Part shown: in pieces, positions 50,316 to 61,463 of the stretch
How positions within the stretch are numbered: position 1 is the stretch's first letter
Layout: each line of letters opens with the position of its first letter
Origin: Armatimonadetes bacterium DC
Lineage (GTDB): Bacteria > Armatimonadota > Fimbriimonadia > Fimbriimonadales > GBS-DC
Assembly: GCA_001442985.1 (NCBI GenBank)
Contig: LDYB01000016.1
Coordinates: forward strand, 248,001-312,000
Direction: 5' to 3'
Length of the DNA: 64,000 bases
The notes under the pieces: model-generated
What the model saw: only the letters and a program-made list of their open reading frames with translations
The model's database searches: none
What the model was told of the DNA's origin: nothing
Program-made: the position numbers and the translations under genes

Positions 50316-52985
50316 TCAAGCGACCGCTCCCCGACTCGCCTCAAGGCGCGGCTTGCCCCATTGAACAAGCTTCTCATAGAGCAGTTCGGGCTTCAGGGGC
50401 TTGCTGAGGTAGTCGTCCATGCCAACGGCGAGGCATTTGTCACGGTCTTCCGACATGGCGTTCGCCGTGAGCGCAATAATGGGGATGTGCAGCCGCCCGC
50501 CTGTGCGTTGCTCGTAGTCACGAATGCGGCGCGTGGCTTCAAAGCCGTCCATTTCGGGCATCTGGCAGTCCATCAGAATCAGGTGGAACGGCTCGCGCGA
50601 GAGCCACTCCAGCACCTCGCGCCCGTTTTCGGCAATTTCACAGATGACGCCCCACTTCTCCAGCACGCGCCGCACCACCTTCTGGTTCACCAGGTTGTCT
50701 TCCGCGACCAGCACGCGCAAGCCCGCAATCCCGGTGGGTTCGGCAGGCGGCTGGGCGGTTTGCTCCAGCAGCACGCTGGGCGGCGTCGCGCTTCGGGGCA
50801 GGCGCAGCTCAAACCAGAACAGGCTCCCCACGCCTTCCTGCGACTCGACGCCAATCTGCCCGCCCATCAGCTCCACCAGTTTTTTGCAAATGGCTAACCC
50901 CAACCCCGTGCCTCCGTAGCGGCGCGTGGCGCTCCCATCCGCCTGACGGAACGGCTCAAAGATGCTCTGGAGCTTCTCCGAGGGGATTCCAATCCCCGTA
51001 TCCTGTACCTCAAAGCGCAGATAGAGCGACTCGGCGTCGGAGCCGAGCAGTTTCACCCGCGCCACCACCTCGCCCTGATGGGTGAACTTGATGGCGTTGC
51101 CAATCAGATTGAGCAGAATCTGACGCAGGCGCAGCGGGTCCGCTTTCACATAGAGCGGCTGGTCGGCATGCGTCTCCATACGCAGAATAATGCCCTTGAG
51201 CCGTGCCTGCGGTAGCGCCATCTGAACCGCCTCTTTCACCAGAGCGGTCAGGTCGGTGGGGGTTTTGTCCAGTCGCACCTGTCCTGATTCGTACTGTGCA
51301 AGGCTGAGAATGTCGTTCAGCAGCGCCATCAGATGCTCGGCGCTTTGCTGGGCGGTCTCTATCAGCTCGCGCTGTTCCGAGTTGAGCGGTGTATCGGCAA
51401 GCAGGCGGAGCATACCCAGCACGCCGTTCATGGGGGTACGAATCTCGTGGCTCATGTTCGCCAGAAATTCGGAGCGCATCTGCGCCAGCCGTTCCGCCTG
51501 CTCTTTGGCGTGGCGCATCATCTGGAGCGAGCGCTCCGCCATCATCGCGCCCCCAATCAGTTCGCCCAGCCGACGCATGAACTCGCGCGTCAGCTCGTCC
51601 TGAAGAGGCGGTTGAGCACCCTCAGTGAATAGGAACAGAAGCCCCGTGTCAGAACCCAGCCACCGCAGCGGCACCACCCACACATAGCGCGGCGCCTCTC
51701 TGCGAATCACCATCGGGGCGGGGAGTGCAGGATTGCTCAGCCACTCTTCCACAGGCAGCACGCGCCAGCGAGAGAGAAACGCCTCCGAATGCTCGCCCCA
51801 ACTGCAGCAGAGATGCAGTTCATTCCGCTCCAGATGCCAGATCAGGTACTCGGACGCCAGCCGCAACTCGCTTTGCCGGGAAATCCGTCTCAGCAGGGCG
51901 TTAATTCGCTCAGGAAGTGGGGCAGGCGATTGGAGATCCAGCGCGGCTTCCGCGAGCAGGGCGTCGTAATCGGCACGCCGCTTCTCCTGCTGTTCCTTGA
52001 GAACCTGCGCCGTGATGTCGCTCTGAATGGAAAGATACCCCAGCAGATTGCCCTCCTTATCATGGATGGGGGAGATCACCACCTCTGCCCAGTAGTGCGT
52101 ATCGGGATGGAAAGGAACGGGCGTCGTTTCGGTATGCTCCAGGACTCCATTCTTGCGGTTGATCAGCCGCCCGCGAAACACTTCCCCGCGCGCGATGGTG
52201 GCAAACAGCTCCCGATAAAACTCCTTGCTCTGGAAGCCACTTTTCAAGATGCTGGGGCGATTGCCGATTGCCTCCTCAGGCGTATAACCCGTGATTCGTG
52301 TGAAAGCGGGGTTTACATAGCGGATGAGAAACTTTGTGTCGGTGATCAACACGGCGTTGGGCGAGGTCTCCAGGGCGCGAACAAGGATTGCAATCTGCTC
52401 CTGCGCCTGCTTCTGTTCGGTGATGTCGCGCCCCACCGACTGCAACTCCACAAGATTGCCTTCTGCGTCAAAAAGCGCACGGTCGGTCCATTCCATCCAG
52501 CGCACCGACCCATCGGGCGCTATCACCCGATGCGTGTAGGTGTGGAAGGGCTTCTCCGGCGTGAGCTGGCTCACGACCTGATGAATTACTTCACGCTCCT
52601 CTTCAGGCAGGTAAACCAGAAAGTTGACCCCGACCAGTTCCTCGCGGCTCTTGCCGAAATAGCGGGCGTAGGCGCCATTCACAAAAGTCAGCGTGCCATC
52701 GGGTTTCCAGCGACAGATAAGTTCGGTCTGGTCTTCCACCACCGACTCGTAGAGCCGAGCGAGGTGTTCCAGTTTGCTCTGCGATGCCCGATTCACATAG
52801 CGCACCAGCAGCGCCAGGTAGGTTCCTACAGCGATGGCTACGCCCCCTGCGAACAGCATGCTGGCGAGGTTCAGTTGCATTCCCAGCAGGCAGCGCATCA
52901 CCGGCAGCAGTACCACAAACATCGCCAGCACGGGGCGCGTGGTTTTGCAGAGATCCCAGAACCTCCGTACATATGAGCGAGACAT
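50316..52985 (-). CDS. Hybrid sensor histidine kinase with PAS domains and receiver
   Basis: An 889-residue membrane kinase. Two short hydrophobic segments ([12 protein letters not shown] and [24 protein letters not shown]) precede a PAS domain ([28 protein letters not shown]), a second PAS/PAC ([30 protein letters not shown]), a GAF-like part, HisKA with phosphoacceptor His in [15 protein letters not shown], HATPase ([39 protein letters not shown]), and a receiver with [10 protein letters not shown]. There is no output domain; the phosphate must pass to an Hpt protein, possibly that of the upstream kinase. ATG 52985 has GGGAG 7 nt upstream; ATG 53015 is an alternative. Confidence 0.9.
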
Positions 52986-53019
52986 CCCGGCTCTCCCAGA
53001 ACAGTTCCGCATCATGCCC

Positions 53020-56000
53020 CTAAGCCGCCTGTTGATGCAGGAACTCTTCAAGGTATCCTTGCAGGGCATGCCAGCTCTTGTGGAGCGCCTGCAATGCCTC
53101 ATGGGCGCCGCTCAGGTCGCCCGCCTTGCCCATCTGTTCCAGTTTGTAGGCGTCTTCTGCCAGCGGGTCTGCGCCGATAGAGCGCGCGCTGCCCTTGAGG
53201 GTGTGCGCCACGCGCCCGAAGGTCGCGGCATCGCCCAATGCCAGCGCCGACTCCAGCTGGCTCAGCAGGGTGGGCATCTGAGCGATGAACTCCTGAAACA
53301 GCTCCACCTGAAACTCCACATCACCACCCGTGATTTCCTCCAGATGTTCCCAGTTAATCAGCTGCATCATCCTCACCTCTTTTTGAGATTTTTCCACATC
53401 CGCCTGGTGTTTCTTCGCTTTGAGCCACTTGAGGAGCGTTGTTTTCAGCTCGCCAGGTTTGAGCGGTTTGCTGAGGTAGTCGTCCATGCCGACAGCGAGG
53501 CACTTCTCGCGGTCGCCGCTGAGAGCATGCGCGGTCAGCGCCACAATCGGAACGCGCTCTCTGCCCGTTTGCGCCTCATGCTGGCGAATATGGCGAGTCG
53601 CCTCATAGCCGTCCATTTCGGGCATCTGGCAGTCCATCAGGATAAGGTCGTAAGTTTGAGCGGCGACCCTCTCCACCGCCTCGCGTCCGTTCACCGCCAC
53701 TTCTACCTGCACACCCAGTTTTTCCAGCAGGCGTATGGCGACCTTGCGGTTGACCTCGTTATCCTCCACCAGCAGGATTCGCGCGCCCGCCAGCGCCCCA
53801 GCATCCTCTTGCTGATTTTCCTGCGAAGAGCCTCCTGAATCGGGGGCGGCTTCCTTCAGGATTACAGGTAGGGGTAAGTCCACGAAGAAGGTACTCCCCT
53901 CGCCCACTTTGCTCTGGACGCCAATTCGCCCGCCCATCATCCCGGCTAATCGCTTACAGATGGCTAAGCCCAGCCCTGTGCCGCCGTACTTGCGCGTGGT
54001 GGAGCTATCCGCCTGAGTAAACGCCTCAAAGAGGTGCGCCTGTTTCTCTTCGGGGATGCCAATACCAGTGTCGCGTACAGCGAGTCTTACCCCCTCGGCA
54101 AAAATGCGGCTGGGCTCCACACACACCACCACCTCGCCCTGATGAGTAAACTTAATCGCGTTGCTGACGAAGTTCGCCAGAATCTGGCGCAGGCGCACAG
54201 GGTCGCCCATCACGGCTCTGGGAGCGTCCGTACCCCACTCAGATCGGAGGGTGAGTCCCTTCTCGCTGGCGCGCCCGTAAAACAGCGCCAGGGTTCCCGT
54301 AACCAGCTCTTCGAGGGAAACGGGGATTTGCTCCAGCTCCATCTTGCCCGCCTCAATTTTGGAGAAGTCCAGAATATCGTTCAGGAGTGCCAGCAGGTAG
54401 TCCGCGCTCTCGCGAAGCGTCTTGAGGTAGTCGCGCTGTTCGGGCGTGAGCGGCGTGTCCCAGAGCAGTTCCACCATCCCGAGGATTCCGTTCATCGGCG
54501 TGCGAATCTCGTGGCTCATATTGGCGAGGAATTCCGACTTGGCTTTGCTGGCAGCTTCCGCCTGTATTGCCAGCTCCTGTGCGTGTAAAAGCGCCTCCTC
54601 AAGGCGGTAGTTCGTTTCGTTCAGCAGGCGCTCCGCATGTTTTTGCTCGGTGATGTCCCTCACCAGCACCACCACTTTATCGTCGCCGTAGGGCACATGG
54701 CGTGCTTCAAAATATTGCGTGCCCTGAGGCATCTCCAGCGAATACTCTATTGTCTGGGGAGTACCCAGCTCCAGAGTGAGTTGAATAGCGTTCAGGCTCA
54801 GCCTGGCGACAGTTGGGGGCAGCACCTCGTCCACACGACGCCCAAGGAAATGTTCAGGAGGCGCCGTGAGCATTTCCACACTGGGCGCATGGTAGCTGAG
54901 GAACCGCCCTTCGCGATCCATCACGAACATCAGATCAGGCAGGGCATTCAGCAGCGACTGTGTGTAAGTGAGATTCTCTTCCAGTGCGCGCTGGGTTTTC
55001 CAGTAAGTGAGTAGCATCGCCACGATTCGCGCCGATTCCTCTATCATCTCCAGTTCCAGCGGGCTGGGTGAGCGAGGCGTCCGCGAATAGACGGCGAAAG
55101 TGCCCAGCACCTCGCCTTCCTTGCCGATAATCGGTTCTGACCAGCAGGCTCGCAGCCCGGACCGAAGGGCGATCTCCCGATACTCACTCCAGAGCGGGTC
55201 GGTGAGAATATCCACCGTGACCACCCGTTGCCCGCGATAGACTGCTGTGCCGCATGAGCCGACGCAGGGTCCAATGGCTACCCCATTCACAAGGCGGCAG
55301 TATTCTTCGGGCAGGCTCGGAGCCGCAAGATGATAAAGGAACCCCTCCCGATGCTCCAGAATAGAGCAGAAACTACGAGGAAACAGCTGCTCAAAGCTCC
55401 GGCATAACTCTTCAAGCACTTCGCGGATGTCTTTTGCGGCGAGCGTCCCTTCGGCGGCGCGCCCCTGAATCTCAAGGAGCTTTTGCCGAATCTGGTGTCT
55501 GCGTTGATTTCTCTGGCGCAGGTAAGTCATAATGCCCACCAGTCCACCGATGCAGAGCGAAGCGCCTGCTGCCAGGTCAAAGCCCTTCAAAAGCGCCTGA
55601 TCTGCCCTCCTGAGATATGCCAGATACCTGTCCGCCAGAATATCCACACCCAGTGCGCCGATGACTTCGCCATGCTTATTGTGCAGAGGCACATAGGCGC
55701 AAATAAAAGAACCCCAGTAATCCGTAACAATCGGGGTGATGATGGGACTTCCCGTTCGCAGGGGATGTAGCATCCGCTGAATGTCTTCCTCGTCGGAGGA
55801 TTCGTAAACATCCCCAATATAGGATTTGTCTTCCACGCCGTCGTTATCGTGATCACCGGGAGGCGTCGGGTCGAGAATGAAAACGACCTTCCCGTTCTTC
55901 TCTATGTAAGTATAGACATAGCGAATTTCGGGGTGTATTTTCTGAAATCGCGCCAGAGGGTCAATCAGCCTGTTGTAGAGGGGCGTGTTCTCATCGCCGG

Positions 56001-56208
56001 GCTTTAGTTTCAGCTGGGCTTCGGCGTCCACCAGTAGCGAGGCAGAAAGTGCCAGATTAAGCAGGTTTTGGCGAAATTCTTTATCCAGACTTTGTTCATG
56101 CTGGCGACGAAGTACCTGGAGACTCAGGTAGGCAGTCCCCATCAGCACCACTGACACCACGGATCCAGCCCCTATTGCCCAGAGCCAGTCGCTCAGCTTG
56201 CTTTTCAT
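53020..56208 (-). CDS. Hybrid sensor histidine kinase with Cache-like, GAF, PAS, receiver and Hpt domains
   Basis: A 1062-residue kinase. Transmembrane helices lie at ~9-31 and ~208-232 around an extracytoplasmic sensor resembling Cache domains, which includes a Ca-binding-like [13 protein letters not shown]. Inside follow GAF (~250-410), PAS (~430-540), HisKA (His in [15 protein letters not shown]), HATPase ([32 protein letters not shown]), a receiver ([10 protein letters not shown]) and a C-terminal Hpt with [12 protein letters not shown]. It has a full phosphorelay within one chain. The second kinase gene follows within 35 bp. Its 5' end faces the DnaA-box cluster. The signal and final regulator are unknown. 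Confidence 0.92.
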
Positions 56209-56279
56209 CGCCTTGTGTTTTTCAGGTTATTCCATAAGAGCCTTTGTCTTTCATACGCAGGCTGGCTCCGCGCTTCGAG

Positions 56280-56579
56280 TTATCCACAGGCAATTAACCG
56301 GAGTCCCAATATACATGTTGAGTCCCTGTTAAATTAAGGGGCTGTGGACATGTGGATAACTCGGCTTTTTCGAACGGCGGGTAGGTATAATTTGGGTCGG
56401 GCTGAGGGGCGATTTTGAGTTCAAAATTGCGGTTTTCGGAGCTGACTCATGAGTTATTTAGCCTCGTGAAACAAATTGTGGATAACCTGTGGATAGCCTG
56501 TGGATAACTGTGGATAACTCGGGGGCGAATTGTGGATAACTGGGGGTTATCCACAGGGTTATCCACAGAGTTATCCACA
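56280..56579. other. Probable replication origin (oriC): cluster of nine perfect DnaA boxes
   Basis: The consensus DnaA box TTATCCACA occurs forward at 56280, 56547, 56559 and 56571, and reversed (TGTGGATAA) at 56351, 56477, 56499, 56509 and 56531. One more copy with a single mismatch is at 56488. The last eight sites pack into ~100 bp, with reversed boxes on the left and forward boxes on the right. AT-richer DNA lies at 56290-56340 and 56411-56475, suitable for unwinding, and a GG-TATAAT box is at 56386-56391. The region has no gene from 56209 to 56608, and flanking transcription is divergent. dnaA is not in the window. Confidence 0.8.
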
Positions 56580-56591
56580 GGGGGTGTGGGG

Positions 56592-56597
56592 TATAAT
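56592..56597 (+). promoter_or_regulatory. -10 element of the tRNA gene
   Basis: GG-TATAAT ends 11 nt before the 5' end of the tRNA, right after the last DnaA box. Confidence 0.6.
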
Positions 56598-56608: not shown

Positions 56609-56683
56609 GGGCCCGTAGCTCAACGGCAGAGCGGGCGGCTCATAACCGCTTGGTTGCAGGTTCGAATCCTGCCGGGCCCACCA
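56609..56683 (+). tRNA. tRNA-Met (anticodon CAU)
   Basis: 75 nt with CCA encoded. Acceptor stem GGGCCCG/CGGGCCC; D-arm GCTC-AACGGCA-GAGC; anticodon stem GGCGG/CCGCT with loop CTCATAA (anticodon CAT); T-arm GCAGG-TTCGAAT-CCTGC. The first pair is G-C and the anticodon stem lacks the three G-C pairs of initiators, so it is elongator tRNA-Met or the lysidine-modified tRNA-Ile; sequence alone does not decide. Confidence 0.93.
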
Positions 56684-56719: not shown

Positions 56720-57808
56720 GTGCTGTGCTGGCTATGGATTGGAAGCAGTGTTCTGGCGGCGGCGCTGGGGCTGCGGCTGGTGAGTTCCCTCTCTGCTGGC
56801 GAGCGTTCTTTCGGGCGCGCTTTGCGTGCGATTAAGCGGCTTTTTCTGGTCTCGGTGGGCGTGAAAGCCACGGCAGCATTTGGTGTGTTCTCGCTGGGAG
56901 GGGCTTACTCTGAGCCTGTGTGGGCAGGCTTGATTCTTGTGGCGATGGGGTTGCTTCTGGGGGAGTTTGGACTGATTTTCTGGCGCCTTTATCCGCTGGA
57001 GCGTCGACACCGGGGGGTTGAGATAGGGATTTGGGATTATGTGGCGATGCGTCTGGGATTGATTTTCGAGCACCTGGCGCCTCTTGTGGCAGGAGGGTTA
57101 ATGATTCTCTCCATAACTTACACACTTCGTGGTGGGTACAGGGAGTATGGGAGTTTGGGCATCCTGCTGGCGGGGTTGATGGGGACGGGGGGTGTGGGGA
57201 TGGGGGTTCTGTTCTTTCGTCGCCGATTGATTCTGCCCGTGCGCCCTTTGACCCTGCCGGAGAGCCTGATGGGTGAGGTTCGACGCATGGGGCGGGAGCT
57301 GGGGATTACGGTTCGGGATGTGGTGGTTCTGGACGGTCGGCGGGTGCGGATGGCGAACGCTTTCGCGCTTTCAGGGGGACGAATCGCGATTACCGATTAT
57401 CTGCTGGCGCATCTGGAGCCGAGAGAGGTGCTGGCGGTGCTGGCGCATGAGGTGGCGCATCTGGCTCAGCGGCGGCGACTGGTGCGCCTGTGGGCGTATC
57501 TGCTGGGCGCGGCGGTGGGGTTGACGGTGGGGCTTGCGCCACTCTGGGAACGGTTTCCGAACTGGGTGGGGATTTTGCTGATGGGGCTGCTGGGGTTCGG
57601 GATGAGCCTGCCGCTGGTTCTGATGCGTGCCCGCAACGAGCGCGAGGCGGATACCTACGCGGTCAGCGAGTATGGGGCGGAAGCGCTTCGCTCAGCACTT
57701 ATCAAGATGGCACGGCTCAATCATCGGGAAGCACAGGAGCAGACCGACCGACTTCACCCCAGCCTTCAGGAGCGGCTTCGGCTGATAGAACGGTTTGAGG
57801 GGCGATAG
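56720..57808 (+). CDS. M48-family membrane metallopeptidase (HtpX-like)
   Basis: A 362-residue protein with several N-terminal hydrophobic helices (SSVLAAALGLRLV, TAAFGVFSLGG, PVWAGLILVAMGLLLGEFGLIFW, HLAPLVAGGLMILSI) and a zinc site HEVAH near residue 240 (LAVLAHEVAHLAQ), followed by the downstream glutamate in RARNEREADTYAVSEYG. M48 enzymes of this layout degrade misfolded membrane proteins. Start GTG 56720, soon after the tRNA; no strong Shine-Dalgarno. A palindrome after the stop may end transcription. Confidence 0.85.
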   Translation: MLCWLWIGSSVLAAALGLRLVSSLSAGERSFGRALRAIKRLFLVSVGVKATAAFGVFSLGGAYSEPVWAGLILVAMGLLLGEFGLIFWRLYPLERRHRGVEIGIWDYVAMRLGLIFEHLAPLVAGGLMILSITYTLRGGYREYGSLGILLAGLMGTGGVGMGVLFFRRRLILPVRPLTLPESLMGEVRRMGRELGITVRDVVVLDGRRVRMANAFALSGGRIAITDYLLAHLEPREVLAVLAHEVAHLAQRRRLVRLWAYLLGAAVGLTVGLAPLWERFPNWVGILLMGLLGFGMSLPLVLMRARNEREADTYAVSEYGAEALRSALIKMARLNHREAQEQTDRLHPSLQERLRLIERFEGR

Positions 57809-58489: not shown

Positions 58490-59884
58490 CTACGGGTGGG
58501 CGTACTGTCGGTCGATGGTGATGAACCGCGAGTATTCGGTCTGGAACATCAGCTCGGCGTGTCCGATGGGACCGTTGCGGTTTTTGGCGACGATAACTTC
58601 GGCGATTTGCTGGGGTGGGGGCGGCGCGGGGCGCGAGTCGCCGTCGCCTGCCTGTTTATAGTAATCTTCGCGGTGGATGAACATCACGACATCCGCTTCG
58701 GCTTCGATGGAGCCGCTGTCGCGCAGGTCGGAAAGAATGGGGCGCTTGTTCTCGCGCCGCTCCACCGAGCGCGAGAGCTGCGACAGCACCATCACGGGTA
58801 CCCGGAACTCGCGGGCGATCTGTTTGAGGGCGCGGGCGATTTCGCCGATCTCCTGATTGCGGTTCTCTACCCGCCGATTCGAGGAGCGCATCAGCTGCAG
58901 GTAGTCAATCAGCACCAGCCCCAGATTGGTCGATTCGCCCATGCGGTTTTTGATTTCGGACACGAGGCGCCGCAGTTTCGCCCGCATCTCCATCGGCGAG
59001 AGGCTGGTGGTGTCGTCAATATAGATCGGGGCGCTGTAGAGGCGTTCCGCAGCGAAGTGAAGTCGGTCCCACTCTTCGTCGGTGAGCCGCGCGTGCCGAA
59101 TCCGTTGCATGCTCACCATCGCGTGGGAGCAGAGCATGCGCTGTATCAATTGCTCGGTGGACATCTCGAGGCTAAAAATCGCGACGGGCAAGCCCTCGCG
59201 GAGTGCGATATTCTCGGCAATATTCAGCGCGAGCGAGGTTTTGCCCATGCTGGGGCGCGCCGCCAGCACAATCAGCTCCGAAGGCTGTAGCCCCGAAGTG
59301 AGCCGATCCAGGTCGGGATAGTGGGTGGGGATTCCCAGCACCGAGCGCCCCGCCTGCTGCACCTGCTCGAAGTGCTGGAGCATCTCCAGAATCAGCATCT
59401 CGACGGGTTTGAAACTTTTTCGGTCGCGTTCGTGCGCCACCTGGAAGATGGCTTGCTCGGCGCGGTCCACAATATCTTTCACTTCAAGGTCGGGTTCGTC
59501 CACAAGGCGGATGATGCTGTAGGCGGCTTCAATAAGGCGTCGCAGGACAGCTTTTTCGCGTACAATTTGGGCGTAGTGTTCTGCGTTAGCGGGCGTGGGC
59601 ACGCTCTCGACAATATTTGCCAGTGTCTGGATGCCCCCCACCTCGTCCAGCTGATTGCGGTGTGCCAGCTCTTCGCGCACGGTGAGCAGGTCTACAGCAA
59701 TACGCCGCTCGTTGAGCGAGTAGATGACCTCGCAGATAATCTGGTGCGCGGGGTGATAGAAGTCTTCAGGTTTAAGGATTTCGGAGACTTTTTCGAGGGC
59801 TTCCTGGCTGAGCATCATTGCGCCCAGCGTACTCATCTCCGCTTCGGTGCTGTGGGGTAGCACACGGGTTGCGCGTTCGGACAT
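58490..59884 (-). CDS. dnaB: Replicative DNA helicase
   Basis: A 464-residue hexameric helicase that unwinds DNA at the fork. The N-terminal domain ([43 protein letters not shown]) and the RecA-like C-terminal domain with Walker [30 protein letters not shown] and [31 protein letters not shown]-type (here IEAEADV) motifs are complete. No intein. ATG 59884 has GAGGCGGTGAG upstream and a GG-TATAAT -10 at 59920-59915; longer upstream frames would overlap yifB. Its location 2-3 kb from the DnaA-box cluster fits an origin region. Confidence 0.95.
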   Translation of the reverse strand: [464 protein letters not shown]

Positions 59885-59924
59885 GGACAACTCACCGCCT
59901 CTAATACGAGAGGAATTATACCCC

Positions 59925-61463
59925 CTAACCCGCGCCCCAGAAGCGACGGTCGATGCTCCGGTATTGCACCGCTTCGGCGATGTGGGGCAGGAGGATGCTG
60001 GTTTCGCCCTCGAGGTCGGCAATCGTGCGCGCAATCTTCACGATTCGGTCGAAAGCGCGGGCGCTCAAGCCCAGCCGTTGCACGGCGGTGCGCAGGTAGG
60101 CGCGTGCCTCTTCACTGATGGGGCAGAACTCGCGCACCATTTTGCTGGTCATCTGGGCGTTGCACACCAGTCCGTAGGGCTGGAGCCGTTCCAGCTGGCG
60201 CAGGCGTGCTTTGACCACACGCTCTCGAATCTTCGCCGATGGCTCGCCGAACTCCAGATTCAGCAACTCTTCCTGACGCAGGCGGGGGACTTCCAGATGG
60301 ATATCGATACGATCCAGCAGGGGTCCTGAGATGCGCTGAAGGTATTTGCGGATGGCGGTCTGGCTGCAGTTGCAGGTCTGCTGGGGGTCGCCGTGAAAGC
60401 CGCAAGGGCACGGGTTCATCGCGGCGACGAGCATGCACCGTGCGGGAAACTCCACCGCTGCCTGCACGCGCGAAACAGAGACCACGCCGTCTTCCAGAGG
60501 CTGGCGCATCGCTTCCAGCACATCGCGCTTGAATTCGGGCAGTTCGTCCAGAAACAGCACGCCGTTATGCGCCAGTGAGATTTCGCCCGGTCGGGGTACG
60601 CTGCCGCCGCCCACCAGCGCCGCGTAGGAAGTGGTGTGGTGGGGCGAGCGGAAGGGGCGTGTGGTCATTAATCCCGTGCGTGGGGGGAGCATTCCTGCGG
60701 CGCTGTAGATACGGGTTGTTTGCAACGCCTCCTCTAAGGTCATCGGGGGCAGGATGGTGGGCAGTCGGCGGGCGAGCATCGTTTTGCCAGAGCCGGGTGG
60801 TCCAATCAGTAGCACATTATGTCCGCCAGCGGCGGCAATTTCCAGCGCGCGTTTCGCCTGTTCCTGCCCCTTGATTTCGGCGAAGTCCACCTCATAGGCG
60901 GCGGGCTGGTTCAGCAGGGCGTTCACATCCACGCGCACGGGAGGCTTGCGCTGGGGGTTGAGAAAGTATTCCACGGCGTCCAGCAGGCTCTCCACCCCGA
61001 TGACCTTGATTCCGCCCACGACGGCAGCCTCTTCGGCGTTTGCGCGGGGCACGACCATGACCCGTTTGCCCGAATCGCGGGCGTGGATTGCGATGGAAAG
61101 CACGCCATTCACAGGGCGCACGCCCCCATCCAGCGAGAGCTCCCCAATCACCAGCGTGCCCTCCAGCGATTCGGGGGGAATCTGCTCGGAGACCGCCAGA
61201 ATGCCGATTGCCATCGGCAGGTCGTAGGCGGGTCCCTCTTTGCGCACATCGGCGGGAGCGAGGTTGACGGTCAGCCGGCTGAGCGGGAAGTAAAGCCCAC
61301 TGTTGCGGATGGCTGTGCGCACGCGCTCGCGCGATTCCTGCACGGCGGTGTCGGGCAGTCCGACAATCGTCCAGCTGGGTGTACCGTTCTGGAGATCGAT
61401 TTCCACATGCACGGTGAACGCTTCAATCCCGTGCAGTGCGGCGCTATCCACCTTTGTCAGCAT
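59925..61463 (-). CDS. comM: YifB/ComM-family Mg-chelatase-like AAA+ ATPase
   Basis: A 512-residue protein with an N-terminal Lon-like substrate domain (HGIEAFTVHVEIDLQNGTPSWTIVGLPDTAVQESRERVRTAI-type start), an AAA+ core with Walker A GPPGSGKTMLARRLP, Walker B GVLFLDELPEF, an Mg-chelatase insert with a Cys set (MNPCPCGFHGDPQQTCNCS) and a C-terminal helical lid. ComM acts as a helicase in branch migration during natural transformation and recombination. Its Shine-Dalgarno lies in one arm of a strong hairpin (61465-61506). Confidence 0.92.
   Translation of the reverse strand: MLTKVDSAALHGIEAFTVHVEIDLQNGTPSWTIVGLPDTAVQESRERVRTAIRNSGLYFPLSRLTVNLAPADVRKEGPAYDLPMAIGILAVSEQIPPESLEGTLVIGELSLDGGVRPVNGVLSIAIHARDSGKRVMVVPRANAEEAAVVGGIKVIGVESLLDAVEYFLNPQRKPPVRVDVNALLNQPAAYEVDFAEIKGQEQAKRALEIAAAGGHNVLLIGPPGSGKTMLARRLPTILPPMTLEEALQTTRIYSAAGMLPPRTGLMTTRPFRSPHHTTSYAALVGGGSVPRPGEISLAHNGVLFLDELPEFKRDVLEAMRQPLEDGVVSVSRVQAAVEFPARCMLVAAMNPCPCGFHGDPQQTCNCSQTAIRKYLQRISGPLLDRIDIHLEVPRLRQEELLNLEFGEPSAKIRERVVKARLRQLERLQPYGLVCNAQMTSKMVREFCPISEEARAYLRTAVQRLGLSARAFDRIVKIARTIADLEGETSILLPHIAEAVQYRSIDRRFWGAG

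Follow-up and report, generated by a model that had tools for sequence, protein, structure and literature searches.

A conserved DnaA-box element located apart from dnaA is very probably the chromosomal replication origin of a Fimbriimonadales bacterium

The window, i.e., the whole stretch of 64,000 nucleotides of DNA that was analysed, corresponds to C16:248001-312000 of the source assembly, a draft of 2.85 Mb in 26 contigs that is 95% complete and in which contig C16 spans 369 kb. It carries a cluster of DnaA boxes at C16 304.28-304.58 kb, the parts and surroundings of which are as follows (window positions).

56280..56579, no strand: putative oriC, whole element, with nine perfect boxes and one single-mismatch box in a layout kept in ten family relatives
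56280..56288, plus strand: distal DnaA box A, perfect; a box, TTATCCACA or TTTTCCACA, is present here in 11 of 11 aligned genomes
56289..56340, no strand: AT-rich stretch between the distal boxes, the putative first-opening site as judged by composition and duplex stability
56328..56339, plus strand: DnaA-trio position, degenerate in the window (GTTAAATTAAGG); TAGTAGTAGG in most genus g5 relatives
56343..56351, minus strand: weak second box TGTGGACAT with two mismatches, adjoining distal box B (sequence and trio scan)
56351..56359, minus strand: distal DnaA box B, perfect, invariant across the 11 aligned genomes
56360..56476, no strand: conserved spacer, part of search model R1, with the near-palindrome ATTTTGAGTTCAAAAT at 56412-56427 and TTAGCC at 56458-56463
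56477..56579, no strand: core of five reversed and then three forward DnaA boxes with starts 10-22 bp apart
56609..56683, plus strand: tRNA-Met (CAT), right flank, with TATAAT at 56592
53020..56208, minus strand: hybrid histidine kinase (GAF-PAS-HisKA-HATPase-REC-Hpt), left flank, context only
56720..57808, plus strand: M48-family peptidase, right flank, context only
58490..60034, minus strand: dnaB replicative helicase, 1.9 kb from the element

The flanking genes are divergent, with the kinase on the minus strand and tRNA-Met and the M48-family peptidase on the plus strand, and dnaB lies about 2 kb away, both as described in an earlier sequence-only reading of this DNA. Minus-strand genes dominate to the right, as this reading had also remarked, and the plus strand holds only 32% of the coding length within 30 kb. 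The housekeeping genes in the flanks are dnaB, bL25 and rpoN, and the closest named relatives of the DnaB protein, at 66% and 65% identity, come from metagenome bins labelled Armatimonadetes / Fimbriimonadales. To the left, two large hybrid histidine kinases are encoded in tandem on the minus strand (50316-53102 and 53020-56208), the reading frames of which overlap slightly. A promoter that had been placed inside the element was not recovered, as a scan of the region for consensus promoters and terminators found none and only bare TATAAT hexamers are present at 56386 and 56592. The second of these ends ~12 bp ahead of the tRNA-Met gene and could be a candidate promoter for it.

Nine perfect TTATCCACA boxes start at 56280 (+), 56351 (-), 56477 (-), 56499 (-), 56509 (-), 56531 (-), 56547 (+), 56559 (+) and 56571 (+), and a single-mismatch box starts at 56488 (-). 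Eight of these ten boxes lie within the 103 bp of 56477-56579, five reversed and then three forward, confirming both the packing into ~100 bp and the order of orientations that had been read from the sequence. Across the whole draft genome only 26 perfect boxes are found, nine of them in this element, whereas 0.0018 boxes would be expected per 300 bp at the background rate (Poisson P ~5e-31); the density is thus well above chance, as had been claimed. No second cluster was detected in the 2.85-Mb draft assembly, neither by counting perfect boxes nor by a relaxed search for paired boxes. The region is also AT-richer, as stated before, with a GC content of 46% for the element and of 45% for 56289-56350 compared to 61% for the window. 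The duplex stability is low around 56300, and the 40-mer at 56217 ranks within the lowest 0.03% of the window for stability as judged by composition only. By composition and layout, the locus therefore shows what is looked for in a DnaA-dependent oriC, i.e., an intergenic box cluster above chance and an AT-rich, easily melted stretch. The core has a strong potential to form hairpins (z = -10), which is a consequence of the inverted boxes and was not counted as evidence. The element contains three GANTC sites with 1.4 expected, the conservation of which is not apparent by eye, and a search of ten genomes for canonical parS sites found none near any box cluster.

The dnaA gene is located outside the window, as had been noticed, at C7:50439-51716 on a contig without any perfect box, and the 20 kb around it contain scattered single-mismatch boxes only. 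The rsmG gene of the source genome is likewise separate from the element (contig C23), and none of the indicator genes dnaA, dnaN, recF and rsmG adjoins the element in the window. An indicator gene beside oriC is usual but not required (PMC10225481). Contig C7 also encodes a CcrM-type adenine methyltransferase ~7 kb from dnaA (G000, L031:2610-3752, minus strand), the match of which scores 515.8 bits and is under the family cut-off of 830.

Ten further family genomes have paired perfect boxes, and all ten share one layout consisting of a box, ~70 bp, a second box, a spacer of ~125-135 bp and the core, which in the family comprises ~6-9 reversed and forward boxes. Conservation in the aligned genomes extends to the spacer sequence outside the boxes, where TTTTGAACTCAAATT-like and TTAGC-like motifs are found. 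In genus g5 the spacers between distal pair and core (e.g., L210, L212) carry a perfect palindrome of 16 bp, TCGACCGCGCGGTCGA, together with a repeated TTTGTCTAC motif, and the window spacer has only degenerate forms of both. A model, R1, was built from 138 positions covering the distal box pair and the spacer, with the core left out. Of the 18 genomes of the family, 15 contain exactly one strong R1 match each, with E values from 2e-16 to 2e-33, i.e., the element is single copy and conserved in relatives as would be expected for oriC. Four of the 15 matched genomes (G007, G009, G010 and G014, all genus g5) are outside the alignment underlying R1, and in these too core boxes adjoin the match. 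No match was obtained in the drafts G003, G006 and G016, in which the element might fall into a gap.

In other families the R1 matches are weak (E 0.01-0.1), and in the family of Fimbriimonas ginsengisoli none is convincing. Matches upstream of nrdR in two related genomes, G040 and G056, were dropped as origin candidates, since the regions upstream of nrdR in the other family carry scattered box-like and NrdR-like repeats only. In the sister family f3, the DNA upstream of nrdR in several genomes includes a site resembling a DnaA box, close to NrdR-like palindromes (L317, L321-L323, L327-L330). In G019, also of f3, perfect boxes form small groups, of two to three boxes each, at C4:8941-8987 (L214) and C30:6536-6555 (L215); these are possible origin candidates in this family. 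Within the family of the source genome, G008 carries a row of four perfect forward boxes with 11-bp spacing on a 3-kb contig (C39:573-614, L207) and has the conserved element separately on C89; the row may represent contamination or another replicon.

The unwinding module is more complete in most relatives than in the window. The trio rule requires three or more NAN units no further than 16 bp from a DnaA box (PMC8287927). A run of at least three units is found beside the distal box in nine of the 11 aligned genomes, six of which have TAGTAG or longer. The remaining two, G017 and the window, contain two units only (AAT TAA in the window), so the window falls short of the strict rule for a basal unwinding system (BUS).

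The genes next to the element differ from genus to genus, and none of the window's neighbour genes is found beside it in the relatives. In G005 the neighbour is dnaA, the 3' end of which adjoins the element, and dnaN lies ~2 kb away; among the examined genera, dnaA is adjacent only here. In G002 it adjoins recF (TIGR00611, 341.6 bits), and in G001 and the g5 genomes a glycosyltransferase gene lies beside it. Moreover, the distance between rsmG (gidB) and the core is ~1.1 kb in G001, G008, G011, G015 and G017, and 1.3 kb in the complete genome G004. In a DnaA tree, which does not include G002 as no DnaA match was found there, G005 groups with the long-branched G003, and the two form the sister group of the remaining family members sampled. 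Because of this sister position, the dnaA-linked state of G005 is probably the older one, as far as the few genera compared suggest.

The gene orientation around the cluster does not show the bias expected for leading strands. The raw cumulative skew along C16 is noisy. The skew at fourfold sites corrected for gene strand has a mean of +0.077 in the right flank and is about zero in the left flank. In a scan of the whole contig with windows of +/-20 kb, the largest strand-corrected switch is located at 304-305 kb, which is the site of the cluster. Windows of +/-40 kb place it at 301 kb, and with those of +/-10 kb equally high scores are reached at a few further sites. As the switch coincides with the cluster after correction for gene strand, the objection arising from the strand distribution of the genes is resolved. 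Within 10 kb of the element, the difference between leading and lagging skew is positive in 12 of 14 family genomes with a mean of 0.135. For 75 control points, partly overlapping and taken from two genomes, the mean difference is 0.010 and none reaches the value of the window. Averaged by genus the difference is not significant (P = 0.08), because G001, G002 and G005 show a weak switch or none within 10 kb. In G004, the one complete relative, the chromosome-wide skew is nearly flat (43 stretches of 20 kb, ~29% sampled), and its single clear peak near 740 kb lies ~95 kb off the point opposite the cluster, a post hoc and weak observation.

These data suggest that 56280-56579 is very probably the chromosomal oriC of the source bacterium. 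The central proposal of the sequence-only reading, a chromosomal origin apart from dnaA, is thereby supported by the comparative anatomy, by the indicator genes that relatives have next to or near the element and by the local skew switch. Alternatively, the cluster might be a locus titrating or recharging DnaA, of the type of E. coli datA or DARS, in which case replication would start at another site. Like these loci it is a dense group of boxes distant from dnaA, and in a draft genome the origin could sit in a gap. However, the assembly shows no other candidate origin, neither a second cluster nor one at dnaA, which disfavors a datA-like sink. Furthermore, unlike datA or DARS the element has a conserved spacer and adjoins dnaA in G005; in other relatives it adjoins recF or is near rsmG, and a local skew switch is located at the cluster. 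A titration locus is thus considered improbable.

Even less probable is a DnaA-regulated promoter region serving tRNA-Met or the divergent kinase gene. The divergent flanking genes and the TATAAT ~12 bp ahead of the tRNA gene would fit such a role, but relatives keep the element without these neighbours, and what is conserved are the boxes and the spacer and not a promoter. The dense direct repeats also resemble iterons, as might be left by the origin of an integrated plasmid or prophage. The repeats are canonical DnaA boxes, however, the flanks are of housekeeping character, and 15 of 18 family genomes carry just one copy of the element, making a remnant of this kind extremely improbable.

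If the element acts as the chromosomal origin, DnaA would fill the eight-box core array and the distal box pair, which may be joined by protein contacts across the conserved spacer of ~120 bp. From distal box B, DnaA might then spread onto the trio-like, AT-rich strand at ~56290-56340, opening it and allowing DnaB to be loaded there. Within the family, the layout of the element has been retained and its neighbour genes have changed.

Compared to known systems, the element resembles E. coli oriC in that dnaA is located at a distance from the origin. In E. coli, rsmG (gidB) is located near oriC, and in family relatives the element lies near rsmG as well. It differs in its box arrangement, in the trio-type module of the relatives and in its neighbours, which vary within the family. 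The BUS-containing oriC of the B. subtilis type (PMC8287927, PMC6669920) shares with most relatives the DnaA box(es), short spacer, trios and AT-rich stretch, with a further box cluster close by; in contrast, the trio run of the window has two units, dnaA is absent and ~120 bp of conserved DNA part the core from the unwinding module. Bipartite origins, as in B. subtilis, H. pylori and Clostridioides difficile (PMC7561715), similarly have two box groups, one of them by the proposed opening site. In the window these groups are parted by ~117 bp of non-coding DNA and not by dnaA, which sets it apart from the bipartite class, and a single compact origin is the better description of the element.

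The separation of oriC from dnaA is already known (PMC10225481), with E. coli as an example (PMC8287927). For F. ginsengisoli, which provided the first complete genome of its class, scattered DnaA boxes, a jagged GC skew and a large distance between dnaA, dnaN, recF and gyrB were described (PMC4072686), and it follows that there was no clear origin for the class Fimbriimonadia. A literature search for a replication origin in Armatimonadota returned no paper on the subject, the relevant source for oriC of Armatimonadetes being PMC4072686. New are therefore the location of an origin in a class without a clear published one and the conserved element among changing neighbours. The R1 result does not extend to the origin of F. 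ginsengisoli; what it provides is a sequence-defined, testable origin for a single family of the order, and a model that detects the element in drafts. Moreover, the family offers a natural series for how an origin parts from dnaA and yet keeps its components. The origin of ~300 bp might be a portable unit, parted from dnaA and set among recF, rsmG or tRNA-Met-dnaB with its internal layout kept, in a lineage whose skew is weak and whose genes are strongly rearranged, a tentative view the chances of which are put slightly below even.
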